A DNA stretch of 64,000 nucleotides from Halichondria panicea. Lineage: Eukaryota > Porifera > Demospongiae > Suberitida > Halichondriidae. Shown here piece by piece: positions 6,001 to 61,968 of this stretch (positions are counted from its first letter, which is position 1; each line of letters begins with the position of its first letter). The DNA is taken from assembly GCF_963675165.1 (NCBI RefSeq), contig NC_087383.1, positions 5,434,839 through 5,498,838 on the forward strand, in the 5' to 3' direction. Position numbers and translations under genes: made by a program. The notes beneath the pieces are model-generated. The model worked only from the letters and a program-made list of their open reading frames with translations, was not told the origin of the DNA and searched no databases.

Positions 6001-9000
6001 CTGCATAAGAATGATCATTATCATAATAACAGTTATCATACAATTACAGTCATAATTGATACGTGCCTTTCTAATTCACTACATGTACATTGTATTTAGA
6101 AAATGCTTGTCACAAATAGTGCAATCTGATTGGTTACTGAAAGGTCCCATATTTCACTTAGAGACCTCAGCAAAGGTCTTCTACAGAGATCCATTATATG
6201 TACTTGCCTATGGAAATTTATGTTGAAGTCATAGTAACGATGATGCAGTGCATCGTTAAAAATTGTGTTCTGCAGTGCCGCTTTGCAGCTTTTATCTCAC
6301 TCTTGCAGCTACCAATAGCTAGTACTCCAGTGCAGAGCTAACTACTAAGTAGAATAGCAACTTTCTATTAGCAGTTTTTGCTATGCATGATTCTCAAGAG
6401 ACGGAAACGGCCTTCAATGTGAGTTTTTATGTAGACTAGCCAGAGCGAAGTTTTAACGTTGCTTGAGGCTTGTAGAAACTCTTGGTTGCAGAGTCTTCTT
6501 ATAGCCTAGCTTGCTTAGCACTATTCTAAATCAGTTATAGACCTCGTCCAACGGTCACTATCATAGAGACCTTGGACTCAGTCTATAACTATTAACATGT
6601 ATATATGTAGTAATAATTCGAACATTAAAGCGGTGATATCAGTGTATAGAGCGTACAAGAGGTCCAAACCTTATCGAGAGCTCAGGCTATACGCAGTGCA
6701 ACAAAACTAACTTTTTGATAACAGTTCGTCATAGGAGTAGTCAAACTTTTCCCTCTCCCTGAGGGTCTCCTCTGATGAGGCTAAGGTAAGTTTCTCCATC
6801 TCTTCCAAAGAGAACGTTTTCTTCACCAGCTCAGAGTATCTGAGGGTAGCGGATGTGATTCAGATAGGCCCACATACTCAATTGAGTATAATTATTATGA
6901 TTATTATAAGCAAATGCCACACTCTAACATTCTAAATGCATACAGCCAACCCTCCACAACACCTAAACCCCACCTCTTTTTGAAGGTCTCCTCTGCATGC
7001 CGGGGAAGTGAAGCCAATGTGGTCTCCAAGTCTTTGCAGGTCACCTCTCCATTATCCACGTCCACGATTACCACATTGCTGCACTGTGGGGGAAGACAAG
7101 TGCTAGGGAAGGGAACTACTAACGTAGAGTGTGAAACTAACTGCAGTAAAAGTTCCACTGTCGGCATCATCCGAAATGACAGTCTTACATGTATATATTG
7201 ACCTTTACAGGGGTTCCACTGTACAGTGCGTAAATATTGCATCATGCCGCTAAAAGGGGGCTCTTTCCAACAGATCAATGAGTTTGTGTCACAAGGACAC
7301 ATACCAAAAACGCTTAGCCAACCGACTACAAGTAGTAAATACCGTATAGCGGATAATATTTTCGGGGGACAAAATATTCGTGGTTCAGCAATATTGAGAC
7401 ATTTCGTGGGTAATATTTTCGTGGTTGGAGCTTGCACTGCACGTAAAGGTAGGCAAGGTCGCTTCATTCGTGGGTAAAATATTCGTGGTTAGACCTTCAA
7501 CCACGAAAACCATGAATATTTTGCCCCACGAAAATTACCCTTTATACGGTATAAATTATAGTAAGAGGTACGGTTATCTTTCTTCAAAAACTGAGGCCCA
7601 ATTCTCATGCAGATACATGTAGATATGCATAGATTCTTACCCTCTGCACTTCCTCAGTGTTCATCTGAGAAGAAAGGATACCCATTATGGTGGGGAATGG
7701 GGCGTCCAGTAGCTCTAGGCTGTCTGCAGGGAGAATGGGGGCCACAGTGAACTTGTATTGCATCGGCGTGATGTACGAGAACAGACACTGCATGAATGGA
7801 GGAAAGAGAAGTTGTTAGTTTTCGTCGCATTGCAACCGTTGAGTAGTTACAGCTGGAACAGACACACACACACAGTCAGCTTTAGCGTATCCCTCGTGCG
7901 GCTATGCCTCGAGGCATAACTAGAGCACTGAAGTGCTAACCCTCGACTGACATGGATAAATAGAACCAGAGGAGTGTTCAGTTATACAATCACTGCAACG
8001 AGTCTAACAAACTGCTTTAGTAGAGACTGGTAAAGAATCCCTTCAGCTGCAAATAATTATGTAGATCTACCTCGAAAAAAGGTCGCGTGTAGAGTTAGCC
8101 AGCCAACGTGCTTCTTAGCTTCTCAGCTTTTACTCGCGAAATTACAAACAGACAAATAAACAAACCAAACGACTATATACTATACAGGGTTTCATCTAGG
8201 ATTAAATGTTTGAGGGGGGTTTGAGCGCGCCTAAACACGCCGCAAATGTTTGACCACACCCCTTATTACATGCTAGTGCATCACAGGAGATGTAGTTACA
8301 TATTGCACATCATAGACGTACTAATGTGATGATGTCATTACTCTACAACATTTGGGTGGGGGGAAGGTTCACCCCTGCCCCCCCCATTAGATGAAACCCT
8401 GCTATACCTGCTGGCCGCGGCACGGCCTCGGGTAACGAGTGATGCAAGCTGCGCTGTGCTAATGCCTCTCGCCATGTTTTGCTTCGCTCAAAAAGTATCA
8501 GGTGCTGGAGTGTTATATAATAATCACCTTTATATGTAGAGGTAAAATTGGGTTTGTATTGTCATAATTATTGTTTGCAATTGTTGACAATGATCTCATT
8601 ATGCCTCGGGTGGCAGGCGCAAGCGAGGTATATGGTAGTGTGTTTACACAGTGTGTGTGTAGAGTGCTGCAGCTGCTCAAGGATCAATGAAGTGCAAGTA
8701 CAGGCTTCTAGTCATGTTTTCTTGGATTTTAATTAGTGGGTTTGCAAAATAATGCTTCATTCTCGAGTTATGTCTAGTTGTGCTTACTTGGAATGCCATT
8801 GCAGCCTCTTCAGAAGAGTGCATCGCAAAACTTGTTCACTGAGTGTTGCTACTCTACTTAGTAGTTAGCTCTGCACTAGAACGCTGGCTATTGGTAGCTG
8901 CAAGTGTGAGAAGAGAGCTGCAAGGCTCTGCTGATGCAGCCATTTATTTTAGACTTGAACTTTTGGCATCAATCGTTTTTAATAACAATTGTGGTCGATC

Positions 9001-12000
9001 ATTACCCACTCTTTGAGTTTGCATGCAGCAAAAATTAATCAATGCAAAAATATGTTCATGATGGCATCTACACCAAGGAGATTATAGAAGAGAAGCTTAA
9101 TTGATCTTCAGGGATTTACCTTAACCCTTTCCCCGTTTTAATTAAAACAGAATAAATAACTTATTATATCATGAACCATACATTGAAATGACTTGTAACT
9201 ATTTCCTACAGGTAGCGCAGACCCCAGAGGTATCTTGACACCATCTTCGTTACCTAGCAACTGACCACCCCCACTAATTAGCAATTGTTTACAAACATTC
9301 ACAATTATGTACACAAATAATATTGTATGAGGGCACAGAGTGGCTAAAGACACTAAATAAGTGTTCTCAATGTTCTCACGGTGACATGGTTCAATCAGGA
9401 TCTGCAGAAAGTTCTCTGTGAGGTCGTACCAGCAGACGCCCTTTTCCTGGGAAATGTTTTCTTCACCTACACACAGGTTTACAAGTTCAATAGTGGCTCA
9501 TGATGTCCACTGCTGTACTAACTAGCCTAAATACATGAAGCTATCAAGACTACAGATGCTACTTACCAGATCCAATAAGTTTATCCATCGCTAGACTGAG
9601 CTTCTTCCTCAGGCCTTCAGCCTCTATATTCTTTAGCTTAAAGTAGCTTCTTATCTAGCTATGATCCCAGTCACTATCCTCTCACTCAACAAGGCCATAA
9701 GCATCGATATTCTCACTGCTCTAGAACCTCACTGTGGTTGTACTACGAAGATCTTGAAACATCATCAAACAGTCACTTTTATTTCGATATTATTGTACGA
9801 AGCGTACCTCGAGGCAGCATATTAAAGATACCATGTGAAAGAGCAGCTCAATGCGCATGTGCTGGTTGGTACCTACAGCGTGCGTATAGCTCCAACACAG
9901 CGTGCACAGCGAATTTTTGAAAATGACCACTAGAGTGGCCGTCATATGACGGCTTCAACGGGGAAAGGGTTAAAAAGGAATCTCCCATGCGGGGAATCGA
10001 ACCCCGGCCACGACGGTGAAAACGTCGGATCCTAACCACTAGACCACATGGGATGCACATCATTAGTTAGAACAATTTTTCTGCTGATTTGGCTCACATG
10101 CATGTACAGTAGTGCCTTTAGTCTTAAAAAATGCAAAAATTGCTCTTATTGGTGATTGTAACATTTCTAAGAAATGTGTAGGTAAAAGAAACATATCCAA
10201 AAAGATCTCCATGGCAATCAAAGGCGATAAGTATGTGGTGGTTTATAAAACAGAAAGAGTAGAACCTCGCTAATCCGGACCCCTTTAGTCCGAAACATCG
10301 CAAATCTGGACAAAATGGCAAACTGAAAAAGAGGAAGGGCTGTCAGTAGAATAGACTATTGCGCATGCGCAATCTACTTGCTTTGCTGAATCAGCAATAA
10401 TTTATTGCTCAATACAATGGCTACTAAAAGAAAGCAAAGAGAGAACTCACAAGAGACTCACTGTATTGGAGAGAAAGTTGAGATAAAAGACTGGCAGCTT
10501 CCCTTCTGGCAACAGTAATATCCATACATGTATAAAAGTGTCTTCGTTAATGATATTCATCATCACACTGTAATTTATGAATTTCCTGACAAGAACCACG
10601 TGGGCAGTGATCGCACACGACAATAAAGCTAATTCTCAGATGTCAGTGAACATCACTCCAAGACGGCCGCTTTACGCACAGTAGATAGGGAAAGTAACGC
10701 TTAGCCTTCCACAGCCTCATTGAAGTGTTTTCACACTGGCTGGGCTTATGCATGCAAAGTAGGTTGAAATAATTAGAAAAGTTTACTACATGTACAAGGG
10801 CATGCGCAGAGCCCCAAAATGAATTTTTATTGCAAATCAACCACCACATACATGTAGGACGACGGCACATTTGTAAGTGCTGTATAATTATATGTAATGT
10901 ACATACCATTAACAATGCACTTCACAAAGTGTGAAAATAATAACTATCATCACCCAATGTGGAGCTCGAACCCATGACCCTGAGATTAAGAGTCTCATGC
11001 TCTACCGACTGAGCTAACCGGGTGATTACTACTATACAGTATTCTTACATGTAGTTTCAAGTCTATAATAATGAACAACGTTTCTTCTTCACACCAGTTA
11101 CCTTGATGACGTATGTTGGTAGATAGTAAGACGATGATACAAAGAGAATCGACTGTTCGGTGAGAATGGCACAGATGACCCTTAGGACATTAGCTACACC
11201 CAAGCATGTGAACGGGTGGTTCAGACGAATATCTGTCTCAACACCTACAACAAAAAGAGAAGAAGTTCAATCACATACAGTATACTATAGCCAGGAGAGC
11301 ATCATAGTACATTGTACAAGTACATAACACACTTCATGCAATTCCCTACTTCATGCAATTCCCTACACCAAATATTGTTGGGTACAATAATGTACGTACA
11401 CATGCAGGCACTGTACAGTACTCAAGCATAACTATGATACAAACATGTACCATATACCAAAATTACCACTAGACTATATCCATATAATGATTGTTCATCA
11501 GTTACACAGCAGTTTGATCATGCATGCTATCTTTCACTCACTTCCTCTGGGGGGCCTGACGGTAATTTGTGAGGAGAATCCAGGAAGACTGACACTCTAC
11601 AGTACAAGAAAGACAACATTTCTATAAGGCAAAAGTGTTTTCTAGAGCCTCGTATAGCGGGTTGGTAATATTAATGCACAATAGGTCCTACGTTATATAA
11701 TTCTGAGCTGTACGAAATTTTTAAATACAAATATTTAACGGTCAATCTGTTGTTATAATTATGCATGTGCCAATTTGAAAATATCCTTATCTGACCATGA
11801 CACTCACAATGGAGAGGAGTCCAGGGGGTGGGGCTGGTACAAGGAAAACCCTCTCAGCAAACTCCCTCACTCCAGACCAGAAGTACAACTCATCACAATC
11901 TGACAACCAGCGGTAGAACCTACGTACACGTCACATGAATGCATGCATATATGAGTGCAACTACATGTAAACAGTGCATGCATGTTCAAGTTCGAATGCA

Positions 12001-26438: not shown

Positions 26439-27445
26439 TAAAAATTACATCACCAAGAATATGGGAAACGATGTCATCTCTTCTGTGAGGCTGAGGTGAA
26501 TATTACCATGCATGCATGCAGTACTTTGTAATAATTATTGCACCTTGTATACCGTATACGTATAGAAGGTAATTTCTTATGGGGTAAAAATTCGTTCAAC
26601 TCGAAAACGGTGATTTTCATGAGTAAAATTCGTTTGACTTTATTGCATGCATACGTTCCGGTAAGCCACGCCTACGTTTTCGTGGAGGTTAGCTTGCCCA
26701 CGAAAATAATGAAAATTTTACTCCACAAAAATTACACGCTATATGGTACATAATTATCATAATTAAAATGTAATACTTACTATATAGCTAGTAACTTTTA
26801 ATTTTCATGCATGTATGTTAATTATACTGTAATGAGCATGCGCATGCAAGCAATAGTTGTATAGAACTTGTACAGTGTCAGTGATGGCAAATGACTAACT
26901 ACACATTCCAAACTTGATTGTGATTCCCCTCCAGAAAACCTGATATTGTTCTGTACGAGCACGCTGGTTACAAGGGTCAAACTCTTCCCCTCACTGAAGC
27001 TACCCCCAACTTTATTCCTCTCGGCTTTAACGACAAAGCCTCCTCCATTGAAGTCACGAGTGGCAAGTGGACTGTCTATCAGGATGTCAACTACAAAGGG
27101 AAAAGCCTCATTCTGGGAGTGGGAAAGTACGACATCGATTACATTACCAAGAACCTGGGAAACGATGTCATTTCTTCTGCTAGGCCTGCCGAAATATCCC
27201 TGTTTGAGCATGCCAATTACGATGGAAAACGCATGCAATTGTCCAAAGATACTCCAACCTTGGTTCCGCTAGGTTTTAATGATATTGTCTCCTCTATTGA
27301 GGTAATCTTTGGTGATTGGACCGTGTATGAGCACGTTGACTATAAAGGAAAGAGCCTGGATCTGAAAGTTGGAAAGTATGACATTGACTACATCAAGACA
27401 AATCTAGGAAACGATGTCATCTCCTCGGTGAGATTGACACCATGA
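26439..27445 (+). CDS. Beta/gamma-crystallin, calcium-binding type (5' end uncertain)
   Basis: The main exon, 26935-27445, encodes two crystallin domains, that is four Greek-key motifs. The key starts are VLYEHAGYKG, WTVYQDVNYKG, SLFEHANYDG and WTVYEHVDYKG. Each motif carries the (N/D)(N/D)XX(S/T)S calcium-binding signature: NDKASS, NDVISS, NDIVSS, NDVISS. A short upstream exon ending at 26495 codes for the end of another domain (ITKNMGNDVISSVRLR) and joins the main exon in phase 2 through a 439-bp intron with normal GT and AG ends. The protein therefore had at least part of a third domain. Further upstream the similarity ends in transposon-like sequence, so I see no start codon. Related proteins are known from the sponge Geodia. 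Either exons lie elsewhere or the 5' part is broken. Confidence 0.8.
26550..26748. mobile_element. MITE, family A, in the crystallin intron
   Basis: Starts taccgtatacgtatagaagg and ends ttacacgctatatggta. It lies inside the 26496-26934 intron, and similar sequence also abuts the upstream exon. Confidence 0.7.
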
Positions 27446-37200: not shown

Positions 37201-39844
37201 GCCATGGCAGTACATCTATAGCACATGTACGTACGTAGTATATAGCTCACACCATATACATACATGTACACGCATTGTATCTCTTAACAAGATGTACAAT
37301 AATAATAATTGTGATAGTACAACAATAATAGTCAACAATTATAGTGCGTATACAGTCACGGAGACACAACGACTCACCAATTAACAACAATGAGTGGCTC
37401 CACACTACTGGTCTCCACTAGAAACAACAGTGAGGCAAGGGCCATGGCGGCTCCAAACTCCTCCGCATAGTTTCTGGTGAATGTACAGTTCTCGACATAA
37501 GCCACTTGACTCAACTGTGGGGCTCCATCACGACTAGAACTCTCTGTTAAAGGAGAGCAGACAAACCGTGTCGGTCTTATGGGAACATGCAATCAATTTT
37601 GACCGTGTACTAAAAGTACGTATAGTGCTTACAATAGCTGCAGTAAAAGCAGGCTAAAAAGACAACAACGTAAGCCACTCATTTTTCAGTGACTATAGAA
37701 CTAAAACGAGACTCACGGTTAGCGAACAAGTGTACTGCTCCACCAAACTCTGCTCGATTTTCCTGAAACACTGAGTTCAACAATACCAGTCTCACAGTAA
37801 ACCCATTATCAGCTCCCTCTAGGAACCCTAACTGCAAACCACCTGATGGTCCAACACATTGATTCTTAATAAATAGCGTTCGATCTATAGTGCTAGTATG
37901 AGCAGCATGTCCACTATAGCCTAGATACAAGCCTCCACCGAAGGACACTGCACTGTTGTTGTCCATAACACAGTCTGTGATGATGGCATCGAGAGAAAAT
38001 CTGGTATCGACAGTGATAGACATGGCACCACCCCGGCCAGTGAACACAAAGCTTTGCAATAGCTCTGAGGTGGAGACAACCTGACGTGGGTCGCTGGTGT
38101 TGTTTGTGAAGACACAGTGTGTGATAAAGATGCCACGATTGTTTGGCACACTGTTGGGGTCAGTGCCATTTGCATTATAGTGGTTGTCATCGAAACCTAT
38201 ACAGAGAAGAAATAAGCAATTAAATATAGTATTAGCAAACCAAACAATAATAACTCAGGTATATCACTTTCATAATAGTACATTCCATTAATTCGAATAC
38301 AGTTTGTTTTACTTGATGGAGTAATAATTCCTAAAGTCTATTAGCGTTGAGTTCGGCTACGTGGTCAATTATGGCTCATTTATGCTTTATGTGGTTGACA
38401 AGTATGCCTTTTATGACTTTTACATGGAAAATACTAACTAGTAGCGAAGTGAAGCTTATCAGCTCTAAAGCACGTAGATCCAGCATGTATTAACAAGAAA
38501 ACCAATGGTATATATGACATTTTAGTGAAGTATGAACAGTTATGAAAACATAATGAAGGCTAAAACTCAACACAAAATTATAGTGAATATACATGTACCT
38601 TGACTAACACCAAAAACAATTGGAAGCTCTCTCTAGATACTGATTATTACAAACCGTGCAATCTGATCGGTTAAAACCTTCAGAGCCCTGTGACAAGCCC
38701 CTGCATGGTTATCTAGCTCACATGGTCTAGATAATGTTTAGTTGGTATCTATTTGGGATTAAGAAACCTTAGGGACTATAATTATAATAGTAGTACCCTC
38801 ACTGCGGTCGGCAGCCGGTTTATACATAGCATACCTCGGTTAACCCATACCTCGCACTGCCTAACTAATAAGATTGAGTGGCATGTACATATATACATTG
38901 TACCCTCACCTATAGACAGACCCCCAGCGTGACCTCTGTACTGGTAGTCAGGTTTGGCCACACCCTCGAATCCGTTACTGTCAAAGGAGCAATTGTGGAC
39001 CTGCACTAAAAAGCTTTGGTAAATATCCACGGCTCCACGGGAAAAAAACCTGGAGGGGAAAAAAGTTATGTCGTACTCAGAAATTTAATGGTCATGCACT
39101 AACATACACATACAATGCATGACTGTACACATACACACTATATTTACTGAACAGCCAAACTTTTCTCCCCCAAAGACGCCATGCATGCATTACAGCTATG
39201 TAGTTTCCAATGAATCACTATAAAATCATAATTATATAGAAACTGTTAGATAATTATAGCTTCCAAGTAAGACGTACGTATAGCTTCTACGTATAGCTTC
39301 TACAAGTTTGATATAGAACTTACATGAAACTGCAATCTGAAATAGTCGTATTCGTGACTTTCTCAATAGCAATAATTCCAACACTTTGTGAAAAATGTAT
39401 TCCTCTCATCTCAACAAACTGTGCCCCGAATATCGTGACAGCATAGAACACACTGACATTCTGTGGAGCTGTGAGATTACTAAATTCCACAAAAACAGAG
39501 CCAATATCTTCAGCCACTATCCTAATGTTCTGCACAAGGTACACACTTTGTTCAATTGAGTACGAGCCGGCCGATAAAGTAACCTCTATACAACCGCTGT
39601 CTCTATGAAATATTGTAGTGTTGAGAGCTGACAGCACTTCTTGCAAGTTGCCAAATGTCAGCGTAATGGTATTATTTGTGCCTTGTCTGAATCTGTTGTA
39701 TTGTGGTCTCCAATCTGAGGTAGTTGAGTTCTTGTTAACACTGATGGTGATCTCACAATCAAGGGTGGTGGTCTGGGAGCTGACAGCAAACACTGACACA
39801 GTACAGAAAATTGCTAGGAGCCTCATTAAGGAATTTAGATGCAT
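28282..39844 (-). CDS. Beta-helix ectodomain, multi-pass membrane protein
   Basis: Not a family I can name. The N-terminal exon (39324-39844) starts with a signal peptide (LMRLLAIFCTVSVFAVSS) and an Asn-rich region that then reads like right-handed beta-helix rungs. Further rungs are in 38910-39049, 37717-38196, about 37378-37543 and 36680-36797, with repeated patterns such as NCSFDSNGFEG, CVFTNNTSD, VMDNNSAVSFGGGLYLG and SVFQENRAEFGGAVHL. Smaller ectodomain exons lie at about 36.2, 35.9, 35.05, 34.6, 34.25, 33.9 and 33.1 kb. A Cys-rich segment follows (TYVCPQHFCQCL, CICGRQG, VLCGDCSDES; about 32.33-32.85 kb). About eight hydrophobic segments lie between 32.1 and 29.0 kb, including PLALLSLAMLLLFLVLLPVA and YYFPLAVFIFASMASAIFV. 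The last exon, 28282-28540, is a polar tail. The rungs resemble Pmp/pectin-lyase-type repeats; a cell-surface sensor is inference. Confidence 0.7.
28851..29012. mobile_element. MITE related to family A
   Basis: Starts accgtattacatgtactag and ends cttataataatacggta. The interior contains gatctaacttctgcgttcta, which recurs in similar form near 24.06 kb. It lies in an intron of the beta-helix gene. Confidence 0.55.
33336..33583. mobile_element. MITE, family A (older copy)
   Basis: The left part has gtgggaaattttcgaggg and the right part cgaaaatatcccgctatata followed by tacggtg. It lies in an intron of the beta-helix gene and is followed by an end fragment of the GT-anchored repeat to about 33.72 kb. 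Confidence 0.65.
34493..34568. repeat. Perfect palindrome, 36-bp arms, 4-bp spacer
   Basis: The left arm 34493-34528 (tacatgacacacatgcctac start) is exactly reverse-complementary to 34533-34568; the spacer is aaat. It lies in an intron of the beta-helix gene. Confidence 0.95.
35250..35638 (+). mobile_element. pogo/Tigger-like MITE with intact ends
   Basis: 389 bp bounded by cagtagaacctcgctaatcc and ggattagcgaggttctactg, with a TA duplication on each side, as in Tc/mariner-pogo elements. Near its 5' part an ATG frame begins MATAKKTRRAHK, and the next frame gives KRLT-like residues, resembling the N-terminal DNA-binding domain of Tigger transposases in a decayed state. Confidence 0.85.
36455..36642. 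mobile_element. MITE related to family A
   Basis: Left ccgataacgctttatgtttg and right caaataaagtgctatacggt are imperfect inverted ends around atttcg-type inner repeats. It lies in an intron of the beta-helix gene. Confidence 0.55.
38345..38580 (+). repeat. Dispersed repeat, copy 1 of 2
   Basis: Starts gcgttgagttcggctacgtg and shares about 230 bp in order with 43219-43460, including agcttatcagctcta and ccaatggtatat. Many substitutions show it is old. Confidence 0.7.
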
Positions 39845-51856: not shown

Positions 51857-53075
51857 TTGATGCCTCAACTGATCCGAGCAACTGATCTGAGTGTGGCAAC
51901 CAAAGAGGAGGTGCTACATCTCTTACAATGTATATCAGTCCTCTGTGACCACACAGCTTTCAAAAAGTTGGATTTGTCTTCGACTAATATTGCTGAAGAA
52001 GATTGTGATTTATTAGCTCAACTCTTATGTTCTGGTCAGCAGGGGCGTAGGGAGGGGGAGGGCTTTGGGGGCTGGAGCCCCCCCTTTCTCTGCAAAAACT
52101 ACACTAATAGCCCCACCTTCTCTGATGAGTCTTCAGCCTGGGAATTACTGGTATAGATTAGTGGCAGACAAACAGCATGTCCAAGAGCTAGCTATACTAT
52201 ACTAGTAACTTTGATTCTTTAGTGCAACTAGCTATGGCTAGCTAGCTAGCTAGCTAGCTTTAGCAGTATTATTAATCGAAGCAAGGTGTGGCTATTTCTT
52301 GCACATGCGCAATGAGCCATTAATTAAGGGGTGTGGCTTCCGGTCACCGAAAACTTCGGCGCTCAGCCCCCCCTTCCTCAAATTCCTGCCTACGCCCCTG
52401 GTCAGTATCTTGAATCGTTGCTTGTCAGTGACAACTGTCTCTCCTCTGACAGTGTCCACATTCTGTTTAGAGGACTACAGCAAAATACCTCTCTAAAACA
52501 CTTGGACATGTCACAGAACAGCATTTCCCTAGAGGCCATGACGGCTCTCAGTGCTTTACCTTGGAGACAATGACATGTAAACTAGAAACACTGAGCTTTG
52601 AGTGGCTGTGACATTTCTCCAGGATCAGCTATTGAGCTAGTACATGGACTCAGTCAAAACTGTTCAGTGAAGAAACTGGACTTGGGTATCAATCCACTTG
52701 GAGACAGTGGAGTGATTGCTCTCGGTCGAGCACTAGAAACAAATGAAACAATCACTGGAGTCTGGTTAACCAACTGTTCCATGACTATCATTGGAGGAGC
52801 AGCACTGGCCTCATCTCTGATGGCCAACTCAACAATAAAAGAGCTGTACATTCACAACAATTCATTAGGTGGAGAAGCCATTCAAAAGTTTGCAGAGCTA
52901 CTACAACATAACAAGACACTCACAAAACTATTTATTTTCCATGATGACTCACTCATTAACTCAATCTGATATCGATACCCTCCTAAAAGTTTGACAAACA
53001 ATCAAACAATGGAAAAGCTGGTACTACCAAAGAAAATTAGAGTCAAGGACACTTACAAGAGAGTGGAATGGTGGT
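51857..53075 (+). pseudogene. Leucine-rich-repeat (RNI/NLR-like) gene relic, disrupted
   Basis: The coding matter consists of RNI-type leucine-rich repeats as in NLR and related proteins: FKKLDLSSTNIAEEDCDLLA, SLKHLDMSQNSISLEAMTAL, VKKLDLGINPLGDSGVIALG, TITGVWLTNCSMTIIGGAAL and IKELYIHNNSLGGEAIQKF. Three kinds of damage are visible. A transposon-like block (52040-52397) splits a repeat. The frame is lost near 52560-52575, where the Leu-Gly-Asp-Asn stretch continues in another frame. A third frame resumes at about 52610 with CDISPGSAIELVHGL and stops at 52969. A C-terminal tail seems to continue in yet another frame to about 53075. The first ATG is at 51860, but the start of the gene is not identified. 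An intron-rich working gene is unlikely because the breaks fall inside repeats and lack splice signals. Confidence 0.7.
52040..52397. mobile_element. hAT-like MITE inside an LRR exon
   Basis: Starts caggggcgtag and ends with ctacgcccctg. The 8-bp ctggtcag is present before (52032-52039) and overlapping the end (52398-52405), as expected of an 8-bp target duplication. The same ends bound 12438-13093. The interior has C-rich and G-rich tracts and no transposase. Confidence 0.85.
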
Positions 53076-53338: not shown

Positions 53339-56300
53339 TCATAGTTGTTGTGAGAGGTTGATGTGATTGTAGAGAGGGTTGTTAGAGAACAGCTGACTCT
53401 GGCGCCCACTCACACGACCACCTTCCCCCACAACACCCAGCATCGCCAAGGGAACTGGATTGTTGCCATGGTTATGGCTGAGATAGTCATCGACATAGTT
53501 GATGTTGAGTTCGTCTGTGAGTCTGACGGGAGGTCGTCGATTGCGAGTGGCTGTTGGAGAGGAACGACTGTTGAACCCAGAGTCAATCTGCATGGAGGGA
53601 GGGAGGGAGATTTGCGTTTGATGTTATAAAGCAAATCGAAGAAAGCTCAAATGAACACAATCACTCAAAACTGGCCACCTTTCCAAAAAGTTTACGATTT
53701 TGTTATCTTTTATCACGTACATTACAACATGCATGCACCTGAGATGTGTTAGAGTAGTGGTTAATCTTGCTCCTAATGAGAGGGTCCTCCCTACACCTCA
53801 TAGCACTGCGTACTCTGGACTGGGCCAGTCCGTAACTTAGGAACAGGTACATTCCACTCAGTAACCCCAGGGCGCCTGTTACCAATAGCAACTGATCTCG
53901 GCTAACACCAGAGAACTGAGAAGATGAAGCTGTGTATGTATGTGTTAGTATCCCTGGTTAATGTAATAGCATGTTGTATGATGTACTCCAATTAATTTGA
54001 AGTGCAACGTTATAACCATGCGTGTCCAAAACAAAGCATAATTTTATATCCAACAGTGTACGTGCATGTTAGCTATAATCTACGATCATGTATAATTATT
54101 ATGCAGGGAGTTTGCTATTGAATTATTATACGTCGAGTGTAAATGAGCTCGCATAATTGTTCTCTTTGCGCAAATCATCCAGGCAGTTGTTTGTTAGCAA
54201 GTCATTGAAGTGGCACACAACCGCTTTTAGTTACCAGTAAAGAATTGAGCAGTGAGTGTGCCACAGTAGAGGGCACAGTTGACGAGTGATGAGATGATCT
54301 CAAGATAGATGGACGCTTGGAGAGTGTAGTCACTGCACGCCAAAAGGACAAGGGTCACTGACGTCGTCACTATGACAATCACCGCCGTTGCTCCAGATAT
54401 GTACGTGAATGTGTTTGGAAATGAAACCCACTCAAACCAACACCTAAAGAAAGTGTGTGTGTGTTTGTAGGAACTCAATGCGATAATTAATTAACCTCTC
54501 CTAATGGCCACCTCTGAATGTGAAATTACATAATTATAAAGGTTCCAAATGAAAAGTCTGCGTAAAACAACCCCTCAAAAATAGTAATAAGTCTGTTTCC
54601 CAATTGTAAAAGGGTTCCTCTGTAGATCTACACTGCAGGTCCCATGCCTGATTATAATATTATTGAACTCACAGCTCCGGTGCTTGTGGCCAGTCAGAGT
54701 GCCTCAGACCAGAGTATACCCCCACAGGAATAGCTGGCCACACTGGAGGGTGAGGCCGAGGGTTAAGGGTTAGTATCACTACAATGACAGCCTTATTAAA
54801 GGTCTGGAAGCTCATACAAAGGACCATTCAGTTCGCCATAAACATTTTACTCTGGAATGCACGTCCATTTTGAACTTTCACTCTGACTTCCATACAGTGG
54901 AAGCTGAATGGAAGTGCTTCCAGAGTGGAACTTCTGACTTTCAACGGAGAACTGGATGACTATGAGCTTAGATTTTAATTTTATATATATGCATGGGCGG
55001 TGAGGATCTTGCAAAGAACATTCTAATGATTCGTAACTCTGTGCAATGGACGTAGATAAAAAATATTGGCTCAGGCTATAATTCACATGACTAGCTATGA
55101 ACAACCTATATGAACACGTGCACACTCACTCAGAGCCACTGCAGCGAATGGTGCAATGAGCCATCGCTTCTCATACCAGATCATCTTGTAGACCTTTAGT
55201 ACTTTCAGCACTGGATAGACTACCATTAGACTCAGAGTGACTAGTGCTGTGTAGTGTGTGAGCCCAGCTAGTGTATAGCAGAGAGCTGGTGGTTGAGGGA
55301 GGGTCAGTTGTAGAACTAGAGTGGAGAGGCCTTGAGAGAGAGAGAGGAGACACACACATTGCATCACCGGCAGGGAACGGAGGGTCCTGCATGTGTGTGG
55401 TGTGTATAGGGGAGCGTGTGCATGGGTTGGGGGTGGGTATTAGGTGGCAGTGTTGGGTGTGTGAGTCACTGTGTATGCATGGGATGCGCATGTGGGGTTA
55501 CGGGAGACTGAGATACTACATGCAGTGCGTGACTTACCGACAGGATCAAAAGAGCTATAAACTATAACAAAATGCTCATAGGAGATGCGTTGAGCTTCAT
55601 CACACTCCATGAAAGTGTCTAGTTCGCTCAAACAGCTCATTTTTGTGTCCACACACACACACACACAAACACACAACTGACACACACACACACTAATCAC
55701 TCTACCACTACGCACGTACAGGATAATAATTAACGTATCAAAGGGAGCATGCAGTTCTCACCCTGTAGCCAAAATAGTGATTGCCAATGTCAGATAGAGA
55801 AGCAGCGGCAGAGACAAGAATAAGTGGAAGATAATTTGAGAAACCATTGTAAACTGGTCATCAGTCGGCATAGCAACAACAGGTACCTGGACAGTCGAGA
55901 AACATGAATGGTCTACTAAAACTACACTCAAGAAAATCTAACAGAAACTATCGTTAAAATGCAAAAACAAACAGTAACTCTTACATCCAAGACGGCATAA
56001 GTTCCAGCATGCAAGCATCTGCACTGCAACTGGCCAGTACTGGAAGTTACCAGAGCACAGTTCACACTAGACCACACACCACCACCACCTGAAGGAAGGG
56101 ATCGAGGGAGAATAATAAAATTCTGCTTGGTATACATCAGCAACATAGATTTACCTATAAACAACATCTAACGTGTTACTCAAATGGCATGTCTTAGAGC
56201 ATAAGAGCATAATCTAAGACAATCATATTATTGTAGCCATAATACCAAACAGCTACTTACTAAAAATGCATCTGAAATTGGACGTTCAAAACTCTATTTT

Positions 56301-59300
56301 TGGACAAAAAAACACCTCAATTATTAGCTCCAAAAACAATGCATCTGAAATTGGACGTTCAAAACTCTATTTTTGGAGAAAAAAAACGCCTCAATTATTA
56401 GCTCCAAAAACAGGTTCATTTTCTAATGCATGTTTTTACGCAACAATAGAACGGCCATTATACCATTATTATAGCGGGTAAATCAGGGGTCAAAATATTT
56501 GTGGTTAAGAGTTATAGTTCGTGGGTATAATTATTTTTTCGTGGGATGTGTGTGCACTGTAGGTAAACGATCGCGTGCATGTGCATGGGCTATAGATATT
56601 TGTGACAAAATGTTTGTTCTCTCCCTCGCTATATATACGGTATAATTTTATTGTATGCTCATGCTAATTTGTGGCCGGATATTATACAGACAAAAATTAA
56701 CAGTAGGCTACAATTATAATTATTTACTAACTTACAATTGAGAGGTGTCCATCGTACACAGATGGTAGTGTGTCCCTGAGAGGTGGTCACATGACTATAG
56801 GATATCGTCACCACTTCATTGACCGCTGGATTCTCGTTACTCACACTGATGATAGGGGTCAGGATAATTCCCCCCAACTTTCCAGTGGCATTGCTGCAAT
56901 TTGATTGATTGAAGAGATCGTCACCTTCGTACACTGTAACCTAGGAAGATACAGCAAAACATATTACAAGTTGTCAGTAACGAGCACTTGTAGTACCTGA
57001 ACACCCCCTTCTCCGCCATCTATTGTCACGGTAACATCAGGTGAATCTGCACCCTCCCCTCCAATCTCAAGCCCTATTGATGTGTTCTGTAACCGTATGA
57101 ATGCCAACAGGCTACTCTGATTGGACGCTGGGATATAGGCCCCGCCCACTGCAAGGTGTGAGTACGTCAGAAGGAGGTGAGTATGGTTAGTTGAGAGAGC
57201 TCTCAACAGAACAGTGTCTATCAGAGAGCGGAGTCTGTGAAACGTGTGTGGGGAAAATCAGTACTGTATAGCGGGTACTTTTCATTGGTTGAGATTCGTA
57301 TGAACTGCTCATTTAAATTCGTACAGCGTTGAACGTATTGCGGTAGAATACATGCATGTGATGATCTACAATACAAAAATGTCCACCATACGAAAATAAC
57401 CCGCTATATACGGTATGTTCCATTGAAGGTATAATTATACCTTGTTAATTACAATGACTGTGGTACAATGTTGAAGATAATTTATAGTGCAGTATATACT
57501 CACTGTTGAGAGGTTGATGTTGTCAGTTGTTCAGAGCTGGTCAGTAGAACAGTGTTTAATACAGCCAGAGTGTTGTTGAGAGTCTGTATGTGTGTGGGGG
57601 GGGCATGCATAGTGGATCAATGGCATTCGCAAAACATTTTACGTTCTGCACATGTACTATATAGCTAGAACATTTTAATATTCACAGCATTCAATGATTT
57701 CCAGTACCACCTCCAGCTCTAACAATATTCAAGACCTCCTGCAAAGGACTATGCAGGGAATGTGCAATCTAACAATTCAATAACAAATTGTTGCCTAATT
57801 ACATAAAATTTAATTGGATGCTGCTATACCGCAAAATTATTTGCTAAAAGTTGACGATCTTTTAGCTAACTAAATGTACTCACCTCCACATTGCCAACGG
57901 ACACGTCTACGAGTTGCCTAGCAACCTCAGCAAGGGCGCCCAACTCTCGTGATGTCAGTGTAAGGTCAGAGGTCAGACCATCCACCAACTGTTGTGAAAT
58001 GTGTGCACTTGAATGCACTGTGATAGTTGTCTGTAGGGGGGGAGTAACGGCGGGACATCGGGATAAACTGTTGAAGCATACTATAATGCATGCATATTAA
58101 CAATTTTATTGTAATAGTCTAGTCAATGTTCTAGAAATGACTGTATTATTACTAGAATATTTTTCTGGTGAAAAATCTTCGCGAATGAGCCAAATCAGCA
58201 GAAAATTTGACCCCGTAGCTAGAGTATTAGAATGGCTAACTACGCAGCTCTATTACAGCAAATCTCTCTCACCTGAGTGATGATGGCCAGCACTTGCACT
58301 GCAGGTGACCCAGGTCCACACGGCGAATCGTTCACCATTCCCCACACACCACCACTCAAGCACTGCCGGAAACCCGCTGTGATCTCATTGGACGGACAGG
58401 GGACTGTTGCCAAGGTAACCTCAAGTATACGTGGCCAATCTAAAAAACCGATAGTAGTTAGAGTGGTCTCGGCAGCACAGTATACTGGTACTGCAGTCAC
58501 TGGAGTCGATGTGATAGTGATACTGGAGCTGGATGGCCTTTTTTCTTGTGTTGTTGTGATGTAACTTGTGCTCATTGCTATGGAAACTATCGGGGATACA
58601 TCCAGTCCCATACTTGTAGATGTAGGTGTTACGATATAGCTCGTACTCATTACCATGGTGATGGACGGTGTGGGCACATCAGGGACTAGTTCCTGTACTC
58701 TGGTGCCGTTGGTGCACCGGAGAAGATTAAACTCGGCAATGATATTGGACACTTCTAGTAGAATGTCGAGAGTGGTGCCATCGGAGCAATTGATGAAGTT
58801 GCTGCTGAGATATCTAAACAGTGTGTGTGTGTGTGTGTGTGTATGTCTGACTGGGCCCATGCTTTGCTACTATACTGAGATAGCATTACAACAGCCACAT
58901 GACAACATTATACCACGGCAGTCTACACACTACTTATAGAGCTACTGTTTAACATACAATGTTGTGAGTTGCTCCAGTAACGGTTGAAGCTGCTCGTCAG
59001 GGAAAGAATTCAGAGCATTATTTGAGAGATGGCTGCAAAGAGGTAGAGAGGTGTCACAATGTAAAACTTGACTATAATTATATACACAAGGGTATAAGCT
59101 TAGAATAATTATTTGACTGCATTGTGTGTGCGTGTGCGTACGTGTGGTCTGTTTGGTTAACATACAGTGTTCTCAAAGTGGAGAGTCCCTCAAAAGCGGC
59201 TGGGTTCACAAAGGTCAATGCATTATCACTCAGATCACTGAAGAAGCAAGTACAATGTTATTGTAGCTATCATTGAGTCGAAATACTAATACACATGTAG

Positions 59301-60871
59301 ATATTACAATCTCTCTCACACACGCACATGCATGCACACACTCACAGATGTTCTAGTTTATTGGTCGCTGTAAACAGTTGATCAGGCAGGGAGATGAGAC
59401 CACACCCACTCAGATTACTAGAGAGGAGAACGGAACAGTCTGTATAGTTAGTACTAAAAAGACAGAGTCATACATACAAGACAGTGGGCTGATACAATGC
59501 AGGCTTCTGGTACAATTTGGCTTCAGAAAATTAACACTGATTGAAACTACCTGTACACAATGCCATGCAATACTACATGAGTAGATCTATAGGGGAAAGT
59601 AGTCCTTGAGGCAAGTACAGATCGACCAATTAGTAAATTAGTATCCTTATAGCGCTAAATTTCGAGGCACTTAGATTCCTTCATTCGTGGGTTGACTGCT
59701 TATCGGAAGACACGCCTTGCACGTTAATAGCAGATACTTATAATTTCGTGTAGGATTGCTAATTAACCCACTAAAACAGCGAAAATTAAAATTTCGCGCT
59801 ATATAATTATTATCAATAAACCTCCAAGGCCAAGGGGATGGTTACATCTAGCTTTCCAGACTTTTTATAATACAAAAGCTTGTGGGTATGACCCAGCAAT
59901 TCAAGTGCTAAGCTTCTAGCTCTACATATACGTACACCGACTTGTCCAGATCCATGTCCAAACAGTGAGCCCCACCTTTTTTCTTGTTAGCAAGCTTCAC
60001 CCTATAATTATTTGTTCTGCCCTTTCCAACCAGCTAGTATAAATCAGTGCTCCCGCAAATCAACAAATTCGAAGTTTATGAGGAATGTGCTCTGCATGGG
60101 CTTGAGTTTATGATAGTTAAACCCGACCCACCCAGTTGCTATGATACAGACTCCAAGTGGTGTTAACTCACAGCGTTATTAAGTTGATGAGGCCAGTGAA
60201 AGATTCATTGTAGACTGTTAGAGTGGGGTTGTCAGACAGGTCCCTATAATTAAATATTAATACAGTAACTACAGCGCACTGCATAACTAACAGTTACCCC
60301 TGAAGAAAGGCCAACTGCAATTTAAAGGCCAGGTCCCAATGAGCATTTTTTGTTACAAAACAACCCCTCAAAAATATATAAGGACACCCTCTGTATATAC
60401 AATGCATGGTCGTTCCCCAAATGCATGCATGTAAAACGGGTTCCACTGTATAATTATAGAAGCGCCAATATAATTACTGTCTCACAGCAAGGTGATGTGT
60501 CCCCCATAACTGAAAGACCCAGGCACTACGTCCACAACTGCTGTACTTCCTGACTGCAATAGAGAGCTCCAATTACTATTAAGTACGGGAGGAAGGGGAA
60601 AACTATAAAACTCACTGATCACAGTTTTAATTTACGAGCTATGTACAGAACATAACATAGCTCTCTATTAAACTTATGATATCCCAACACAACATTTATC
60701 ACAAGTCTCTGCATGCATGTTTATGGGAGCTCACATTACTGTGGTCGTGTTCCCACATTGTGATCTGACGTTTGGTATGCACACACAATCCTGGGAGCAC
60801 TGCACTGCATAGCTCAGGTCCAGACCAGCCACCAATAACACAACCAGCAGAGATAGAGCTATCATAGTCAT
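53339..60871 (-). CDS. Adhesion GPCR with LRR, HormR, GAIN/GPS and 7TM domains
   Basis: A class B2 receptor in the plasma membrane. Exon 1 (60740-60871) has a signal peptide (ALSLLVVLLVAGLDLSYA) and an LRR cap with paired Cys. LRRs follow, one per exon, nearly all phase 2: 60486-60553, 60172-60243, 59346-59417, 59166-59237, 58958-59032 (motifs LDLSDNPTL, LNLSGCGL, LDLSDNAL, LHLSNNAL). Exon 58273-58813 carries the last repeat, a Ser/Thr-rich linker and a HormR-like domain (CPSNEITAGFRQCLSGGVWG). GAIN exons lie at 57884-58030 and about 57503-57583, 56998-57236 and 56738-56941. The GPS spans exons 56738-56941 and 55982-56091 with CVRW, WSSVNC and CRCLHAGTYAVLD. The 7TM exons are at about 55763-55887, 55540-55637, 55133-55336, 54675-54778, 54234-54443 and 53741-53929, with CWFEWVS before TM5. 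The tail ends at 53339. LRR plus HormR recalls the ADGRA group, but no Ig domain is seen. Confidence 0.85.
56265..56411 (+). repeat. Tandem duplication of about 73 bp
   Basis: Two direct copies of a unit starting atgcatctgaaattggacgt and ending ttagctccaaaaaca, nearly identical. It lies in the GPCR intron that separates the two GPS exons. Confidence 0.9.
56461..56643. mobile_element. MITE, family A
   Basis: The left end has taccattattatagcgggta and the right end ctcgctatatatacggta. It lies in a GPCR intron. Confidence 0.6.
57262..57415. mobile_element. MITE, family A
   Basis: 154 bp from tactgtatagcgggtacttt to aaataacccgctatatacgg plus ta. It lies in a GPCR intron. Confidence 0.75.
59646..59805. 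mobile_element. MITE, family A (diverged)
   Basis: Left ttatagcgctaaatttcgag, right aaaatttcgcgctatataat. It lies in the GPCR intron between LRR exons. Confidence 0.55.
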
Positions 60872-61968
60872 AATGATAGGCAAATCAAGGAGCTGTATGT
60901 TAGTTTAGCATATACGCCTAGCTACTGTGAAGCTTGTCTCTACTGTGCACAAAAAAAATGGGGGAGGGGCTCGCTTGCACAATCATGCTTGTTAAATCGA
61001 GGGCGACTTGTAATGGAAAATGAGATAATTGATAAATTATTAATGATCTTTACCCAGCGATTGTGACGACTGATGCATGATGGACCACCATGTGCACAGC
61101 AATAATTATAGGGTTGGCTGAGACATGTACATACACCAGAGCAGTTGGTGTTGCATGCATGGTTATTAATAAAATGATTATTTGTATGGTTGATTAACAT
61201 TACTTCAAGCATTTTAACTGTTAACTGTTAAGCTGGCGTTTCATGACAAAAACGGTACGTAATTTTCAAACAAAGCGCAAAATTATGTAGCCTTTGCATT
61301 CAAAGCTGAGAACTATTGTACGTATAAATTGAATTTGGACAACTGAACACAAAATAATCGGCAGTTATTATATAGTTGACTCTGGCATGTTTAGTATAAT
61401 TTCTACTGCCATTTCATAGTATAATTATTCTTTTTTACAGTGCGTATTATTCTGTTCTCACTTCCTTTCTCATATTCTAACCTCCCCCCCCCCACACATA
61501 TTCTAACCTCCCCCCCCACGCATACATTCTAACTTCCCCCAAAACACATATTCTAATATAAACCCCCCCACGCATGCATTCTAACTTCCCCTCTACACAT
61601 ATATTCTAACCTCCCCCCACACACATAATTGTATTCTAACCTCCCCCCCAAACACATATTCTAACCTCTCCTCCACACACATATTCTAACCCCCGCCACG
61701 TATACATTCTAACCTCCCCCCACGTATACATTCTAACTTCCCCCCCCCCTACACACACAGACTGGGTCAGCTACAGGTGGGGGACAGGGTTCTGGCTATT
61801 AGCAATTGAATCTCACTTCCATTCTACAACGTATTTCACTTCTATTCCACAACAAAAAATTAATTATTCATCTCTAAGATGTAAACAAACTTAATAATGT
61901 ATCACGAACAAACAAACATTTCCACGTACACTTATCACATGAATAACGTTAATTTCAGTTTTATGTGT
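60872..61968. other. Intergenic interval, 5' flank of the GPCR gene
   Basis: Holds the GPCR promoter side and the 3' end of the HECT gene, plus the minisatellite listed separately. No other gene was recognised. Confidence 0.5.
61478..61760 (+). repeat. Minisatellite, unit cacatattctaacctcccc
   Basis: About twelve degenerate copies of a 20-24 bp unit, each with attctaac followed by a C tract, varying in C number and in acacat versus acgcatgca spacers. All C tracts are on the plus strand. Confidence 0.9.

Follow-up and report, generated by a model that had tools for sequence, protein, structure and literature searches.

Why do many adhesion G-protein-coupled receptors (GPCRs) cut themselves while others do not? 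A 2026 review treats this as an open question (PMC13197933; papers are cited here by identifier for the passages drawn on). It is raised again by a locus in the sponge Halichondria panicea, within a window of 64,000 nucleotides (the whole stretch of DNA analyzed; assembly GCF_963675165.1, contig NC_087383.1, positions 5,434,839 to 5,498,838). The minus strand of this window carries an adhesion-GPCR-like gene (60871..53339) whose predicted product has the GPS scaffold and its His but no nucleophile, which would make it a natural comparison for the functions of a GAIN domain that does not cut. With a probability of roughly 0.77, we read the gene as an adhesion GPCR composed of leucine-rich repeats (LRRs), an HRM-like domain, GAIN/GPS, and a seven-transmembrane (7TM) region, in which the GAIN fold is kept, self-cleavage would be impossible, and the receptor would stand at the surface as a single chain. 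The single-chain part of this reading rests on the sequence together with known chemistry; coupling and signaling are what we infer beyond it.

The cleavage site

An earlier note on this DNA had described a GPS that keeps its scaffold letters (CVRW, WSSVNC, CRC, and YAVL) but reads H-A-G where the canonical site is H-L-T/S. All of these letters are present on the minus strand, and the match to PF01825 (26.7 bits against a cut-off of 22.5, E of 8.3e-6, profile positions 2 to 45 of 45) makes the GPS more than a chance motif. Its first half, together with the end of GAIN subdomain B, lies in exon 11 (56940..56736), which ends in CVRWTPLN plus one base. The second half and the agonist strand lie in exon 12 (56088..55985), which encodes (C)GGGVWSSVNCALVTSSTGQLQCRCLHAGTYAVLD. 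As the note had said, an intron splits the domain: it is 647 nt long (56089..56735) and of phase 1, the junctions flanking it are GT-AG and in frame, and the joined GPS reads CVRWTPLNCGGGVWSSVNCALVTSSTGQLQCRCLHAGTYAVLD. The kept scaffold comprises Cys560, Trp563, Trp573, Cys578, Cys590, Cys592, and Leu601, three of which are matched by the W, W, and L of the 'VWWL' motif (PMC11697300).

The cleavage site is His594-Ala595-Gly596, followed by Thr597, Tyr598, Ala, Val, Leu601, and Asp602. It lacks a Ser/Thr nucleophile and does not conform to H-X-S/T. The residue at -1 is Ala595 instead of the usual Leu or Ile (PMC13197933), although H-X-S/T tolerates any X. In the comparison with other animal adhesion GPCRs that the note had called for, made here by phmmer, the site aligned without gaps with six chains from the PDB (G6, L3, D1, B2, E5, and CELSR1). 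The +1 residue is Ser or Thr in four of them (G6, L3, D1, and B2) and Ala in the other two (E5, 9mqr; CELSR1, 8vy2). The Ala in 9mqr is possibly an engineered change, as PMC13197933 mentions a structure of an E5 mutant deficient in cleavage.

Efficient cleavage goes with a Phe at S10.49, which orients the His, and a Gly before the Cys at S12.50; B2, uncleaved in the crystal despite its H-L-S, has Ser876 and Asn893 at these positions (PMC13062082). By our count on the B2 row, S10.49 falls immediately ahead of the first GPS Trp, and the Gly position immediately ahead of the second scaffold Cys. On this count, Phe and Gly are each found in five of the six chains, B2 being the exception for both. 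The sponge receptor has neither: Arg562 occupies S10.49, and Asn577 precedes Cys578. As more than one cleavage-linked residue differs, the pattern is not what one sequencing error would produce; it is the one predicted for a GAIN domain retained for fold rather than catalysis. Two additional Cys residues (514 and 568) could, speculatively, form an extra disulfide.

No tested splice restored a canonical site. From the first base of exon 11 to the last base of exon 13, all GT-AG pairs enclosing introns of at least 30 nt were enumerated, the modeled join included, and each join was treated as a single intron and read in the frame of exon 11. Among the resulting 2,221 single GT-AG joins, none gave H-X-S/T in a GPS context (C-x-C..H-x-S/T), and the alternative splice that the note had named as a way back to H-L-T/S was not encountered among them; the segment from the CRC codons to HAG contains no GT. 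The window was also searched for another GPS exon or a paralogue. Outside the gene, tblastn returned only matches with E of 1.7 or worse, and other six-frame motif matches to the GPS were judged by eye to be due to chance.

Because no nucleophile is available from the Gly at +1, two further cleavage-linked residues differ, and the tested joins restore nothing, it is well supported that canonical GPS autoproteolysis could not run in the predicted protein. The claim that the receptor stays uncleaved stands to that extent, as a statement about a predicted product.

Receptor assignment and signaling

The gene was modeled manually, from a start codon at 60871 to a stop codon ending at 53339, as 18 exons encoding 968 amino acids (a coding sequence of 969 codons). 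Its splice sites were placed by eye so that introns would have GT-AG borders and the frame would stay open. Such borders are present in all 17 introns, and frame 0 contains only the terminal stop, as opposed to 70 and 44 stops in the shifted frames of the same coding sequence.

Exon 1 (60740..60871) encodes a hydrophobic N-terminus that is probably a signal peptide (Kyte-Doolittle mean of 2.41 over amino acids 1 to 19) and a Cys-rich cap preceding the LRRs. These occupy exons 2 to 6 (58958..60553), which are 68 to 75 nt long, and were matched in the Pfam scan by LRR_8 (62.6 bits in three stretches, E of 3e-17); the receptor thus has a large N-terminus with adhesion-type domains. The last LRR, a Ser/Thr-rich linker, and the HRM-like domain share exon 7 (58273..58813); a CRF receptor ectodomain matched at E of 0.13. 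GAIN subdomain A and the first part of subdomain B were assigned to exons 8 to 10 (56997..58030) from the phmmer alignment to ADGRG6 chain 21du_R, which covers residues 11 to 402 of the GAIN-7TM query. Beyond the two GPS exons, exon 13 (55762..55886) encodes a linker and transmembrane segment 1 (TM1; Kyte-Doolittle peak of 2.34 at amino acid 624), exons 14 to 17 (53739..55386) encode TM2 to TM7, and exon 18 (53339..53587) encodes a cytoplasmic tail of 82 amino acids in an open frame. The seven hydrophobic segments were obtained by grouping overlapping Kyte-Doolittle windows by eye; one LRR stretch (amino acids 81 to 102) also exceeded the threshold.

A GPS/GAIN before TM1, found here through PF01825 and the ADGRG6 alignment, identifies adhesion GPCRs (class B2). 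Compared with the PDB by phmmer at E up to 10, the GAIN-7TM part matched 17 sequences, 15 of them adhesion GPCRs and the other two cGMP-dependent kinases, with ADGRG6 (2.8e-9), ADGRE5 (7.3e-9), and ADGRL3 (5.3e-7) at the top. The alignment to E5 and L3 extends through about TM5, and the TM3 Cys and the CW of extracellular loop 2 (ECL2) align with those of adhesion GPCRs. In pattern scans for relatives, 2 stretches of viral contigs and, in two scans of genome contigs, 49 and 69 stretches were matched, and none was confirmed.

Several observations weigh against this assignment. The model was drawn from DNA alone, and since its splice sites were selected for openness, the open coding sequence is support rather than proof. 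The exon 1 donor and the exon 10 acceptor were chosen among alternatives, an earlier set of sites having broken the frame. The HRM-like domain falls under the PF02793 cut-off (17.1 bits against 26.2, E of 0.0075). The Pfam GAIN and 7tm_2 models were not reached by the protein, and TM5 to TM7 alone gave no PDB matches at E up to 10. The predicted 7TM region is therefore very divergent, and its competence to signal is assumed.

Were the reading correct, the uncleaved receptor would reach the cell surface as one chain, and its GAIN domain would form a force-bearing or allosteric link from an LRR-bound ligand to the 7TM region. Signaling would need no shed N-terminal fragment, and the degenerate agonist strand (GTYAVLD) would at most be used reversibly; of the two, we favor signaling independent of the agonist. 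The earlier note had concluded from non-cleavage that signaling by tethered-agonist release upon dissociation is unlikely in its usual form. This was too narrow, because non-cleaved adhesion GPCRs may signal through a non-dissociative tethered agonist or without it (PMC13197933, PMC13062082, PMC13322242).

A better argument against tethered agonism lies in the predicted agonist strand and its partner. The agonist consensus is TxFxxLM, engaged by the TM6 Trp W6.53 (PMC13197933). The sponge strand departs from this consensus, with Gly instead of Thr as residue 1 and Asp instead of Met as residue 7 (or one residue missing). No Trp occurs in the model across TM5 to TM7 (amino acids 759 to 860; 53739..54443, minus strand), and the TM6 toggle Trp is accordingly absent, a result that is independent of the TM6 alignment but dependent on the exon model. 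In Drosophila Cirl, an H>A change that abolishes the cut behaves like the wild type, whereas T>A at +1 gives no rescue (PMC13197933); by analogy, a Gly in that position would be expected to weaken agonism as well.

It is conceivable, though we hold it only tentatively, that self-cleavage and tethered agonism were decommissioned together, on both sides, leaving the GAIN domain as a purely mechanical or allosteric coupler. The thought arises because the scaffold is kept without the nucleophile, the Phe, the Gly, the consensus residues at agonist positions 1 and 7, or the TM6 Trp. Such a receptor would be a natural test case for the role of the ancient GAIN domain apart from cutting.

The uncleaved receptor might instead activate itself, the strand after Gly596 (T-Y-A-V-L) entering the 7TM region reversibly under force, a mechanism put forward for human receptors that are not cleaved. 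Tyr598 at +3, an aromatic residue, and Leu601 at S14.50 are preserved, and the non-dissociation model draws support from Drosophila Cirl and also from G5 and D1, for which, however, reports conflict (PMC13197933). The changes at agonist residues 1 and 7, the missing TM6 Trp, and the failure of Cirl T>A, in a receptor that tolerates non-cleavage, nevertheless make this doubtful. We regard as rather unlikely a pure adhesion or decoy protein, in which GAIN and the 7TM region merely anchor the LRR ectodomain and no G protein is engaged. The divergence of the 7TM region, the lack of a 7tm_2 match, and the absence of the TM6 Trp would suit it, but the aligned TM3 Cys and ECL2 CW and the open tail exon speak against it.

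There is very little room for a canonical site concealed by a sequencing error, a pseudogene, or a wrong splice model. Placement of splice sites by eye, from DNA alone, is what could have hidden it; yet two adjacent codons (GCT GGA) would both have to be wrong, the 969 codons read open over 18 exons with GT-AG introns, and neither the enumerated joins nor the stretch between CRC and HAG offers a route to such a site. SEA domains split at Gly-Ser. A SEA-like cleavage shifted to Gly596-Thr597, with Thr597 as nucleophile, is the least probable of all: the Gly-Thr bond is one residue downstream and His594 is close by, but this His would sit at -3 whereas the described reaction is that of H-X-S/T (PMC13062082), and the protein lacks the Phe and Gly that cleavage-competent receptors have.

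Repeats and neighboring features

The GPS intron contains the tandem duplication described earlier (56265..56412; period 73 bp, 2.0 copies, 96% matches, TRF score 275). The miniature inverted-repeat transposable element (MITE) also claimed for this intron is suggestive only: the two halves of 56420..56700 align as imperfect inverted repeats with a score of 39, and the highest score among 300 mononucleotide shuffles was 37. Part of the intron also resembles positions 7345..7447 of the window, at 68.5% identity. The duplication and the possible MITE leave the modeled protein unchanged.

An element with inverted ends (57267..57408) lies in the intron between exons 9 and 10. Its 17-nt arms (57267-57283 and 57392-57408) are 88% complementary, and its inverted-repeat score of 43 was reached by 1 of 300 shuffles; TATAGCGGGT, at its end, recurs at 56470 and 11653. 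A further MITE-like insert, read by eye at 52040..52400, has inverted ends CAGGGGCGTAGG and CCTACGCCCCTG and is flanked on both sides by GTCAG. It sits within a plus-strand LRR coding stretch (LRR_6, 31.4 bits in the scanned part, 52595..52969). About 600 bases upstream of the receptor start codon is a degenerate C-rich tandem array (61471..61746; unit of 24 to 25 bp, about 10.8 copies).

Elsewhere in the window, an open reading frame on the plus strand (26924..27445) encodes two beta/gamma-crystallin domains (PF00030, 116.1 bits in two stretches). An open stretch on the minus strand (37679..38254) shows Chlam_PMP-type and beta-helix similarity (35.8 and 17.5 bits), with no individual PMP repeat passing. 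Genes for tRNA-Glu (ttc) and tRNA-Lys (ctt) lie within 9982..11024 (minus strand), two tRNAs being all that an Rfam scan of the window found.

Comparison with known receptors

Absence of the cleavage motif is common rather than surprising, and uncleaved adhesion GPCRs are already known, including in humans. H-X-S/T is missing in 10 of 32 human adhesion GPCRs, and mouse ADGRG5, CELSR1, and Celsr3 are naturally resistant to autoproteolysis and signal (PMC13062082). Worms can be rescued by cleavage mutants of LAT-1, and frequent loss of the consensus has been described, with the GPS itself remaining under selection (PMC3776922). BAI3 requires G-protein signaling but neither its tethered agonist nor its GAIN domain (PMC13322242). 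A counterexample to any general rule that cleavage is dispensable is ADGRF5, for which knock-in mice deficient in cleavage resemble knockouts (PMC13197933).

In the sponge Amphimedon queenslandica, a GPS was reported in 28 of 40 adhesion GPCRs and not found in 12, with HRM in at least 8, counts that concern GPS domains rather than catalytic residues and include models that may be incomplete (PMC4302439). The HRM is a point of resemblance to the HRM-like domain of the present receptor, whereas LRR does not appear in the domain legend of Figure 4 of that paper. Choanoflagellate adhesion GPCRs nearly all keep the GPS and the agonist (PMC12716839). We found no description of an H-A-G GPS site in the literature looked at, a partial coverage from which absence in print is not claimed.

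Among individual receptors, ADGRC1/CELSR1 (with ADGRC3) resembles the sponge receptor in being naturally autoproteolysis resistant (PMC13062082), and CELSR1 chain 8vy2 keeps the His in a site that reads H-S-A. CELSR1 differs in having both the Phe at S10.49 and the Gly before the Cys. Its ectodomain is also of another kind, with cadherin, EGF, and LamG domains in place of LRRs. ADGRA2 and ADGRA3 (GPR124 and GPR125) carry LRR, immunoglobulin (Ig), HRM, GAIN, and 7TM in that order, and the succession of LRR, HRM-like domain, GAIN, and predicted 7TM region modeled here resembles it; the Pfam scan, however, found no Ig domain in the sponge receptor, and no specific sequence match to this group was seen. 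ADGRB2/BAI2 and ADGRB3/BAI3 are alike in that their GAIN domains were obtained uncleaved (PMC13062082), and the Ser876/Asn893 pair of B2 stands where the sponge receptor has Arg562/Asn577. Their sites are H-L-S in B2 and R-L-S in B3 (PMC13062082), whereas the sponge receptor is without the nucleophile itself. A single predicted gene adds one more example to a known class of receptors; its combination of changes is the unusual point.

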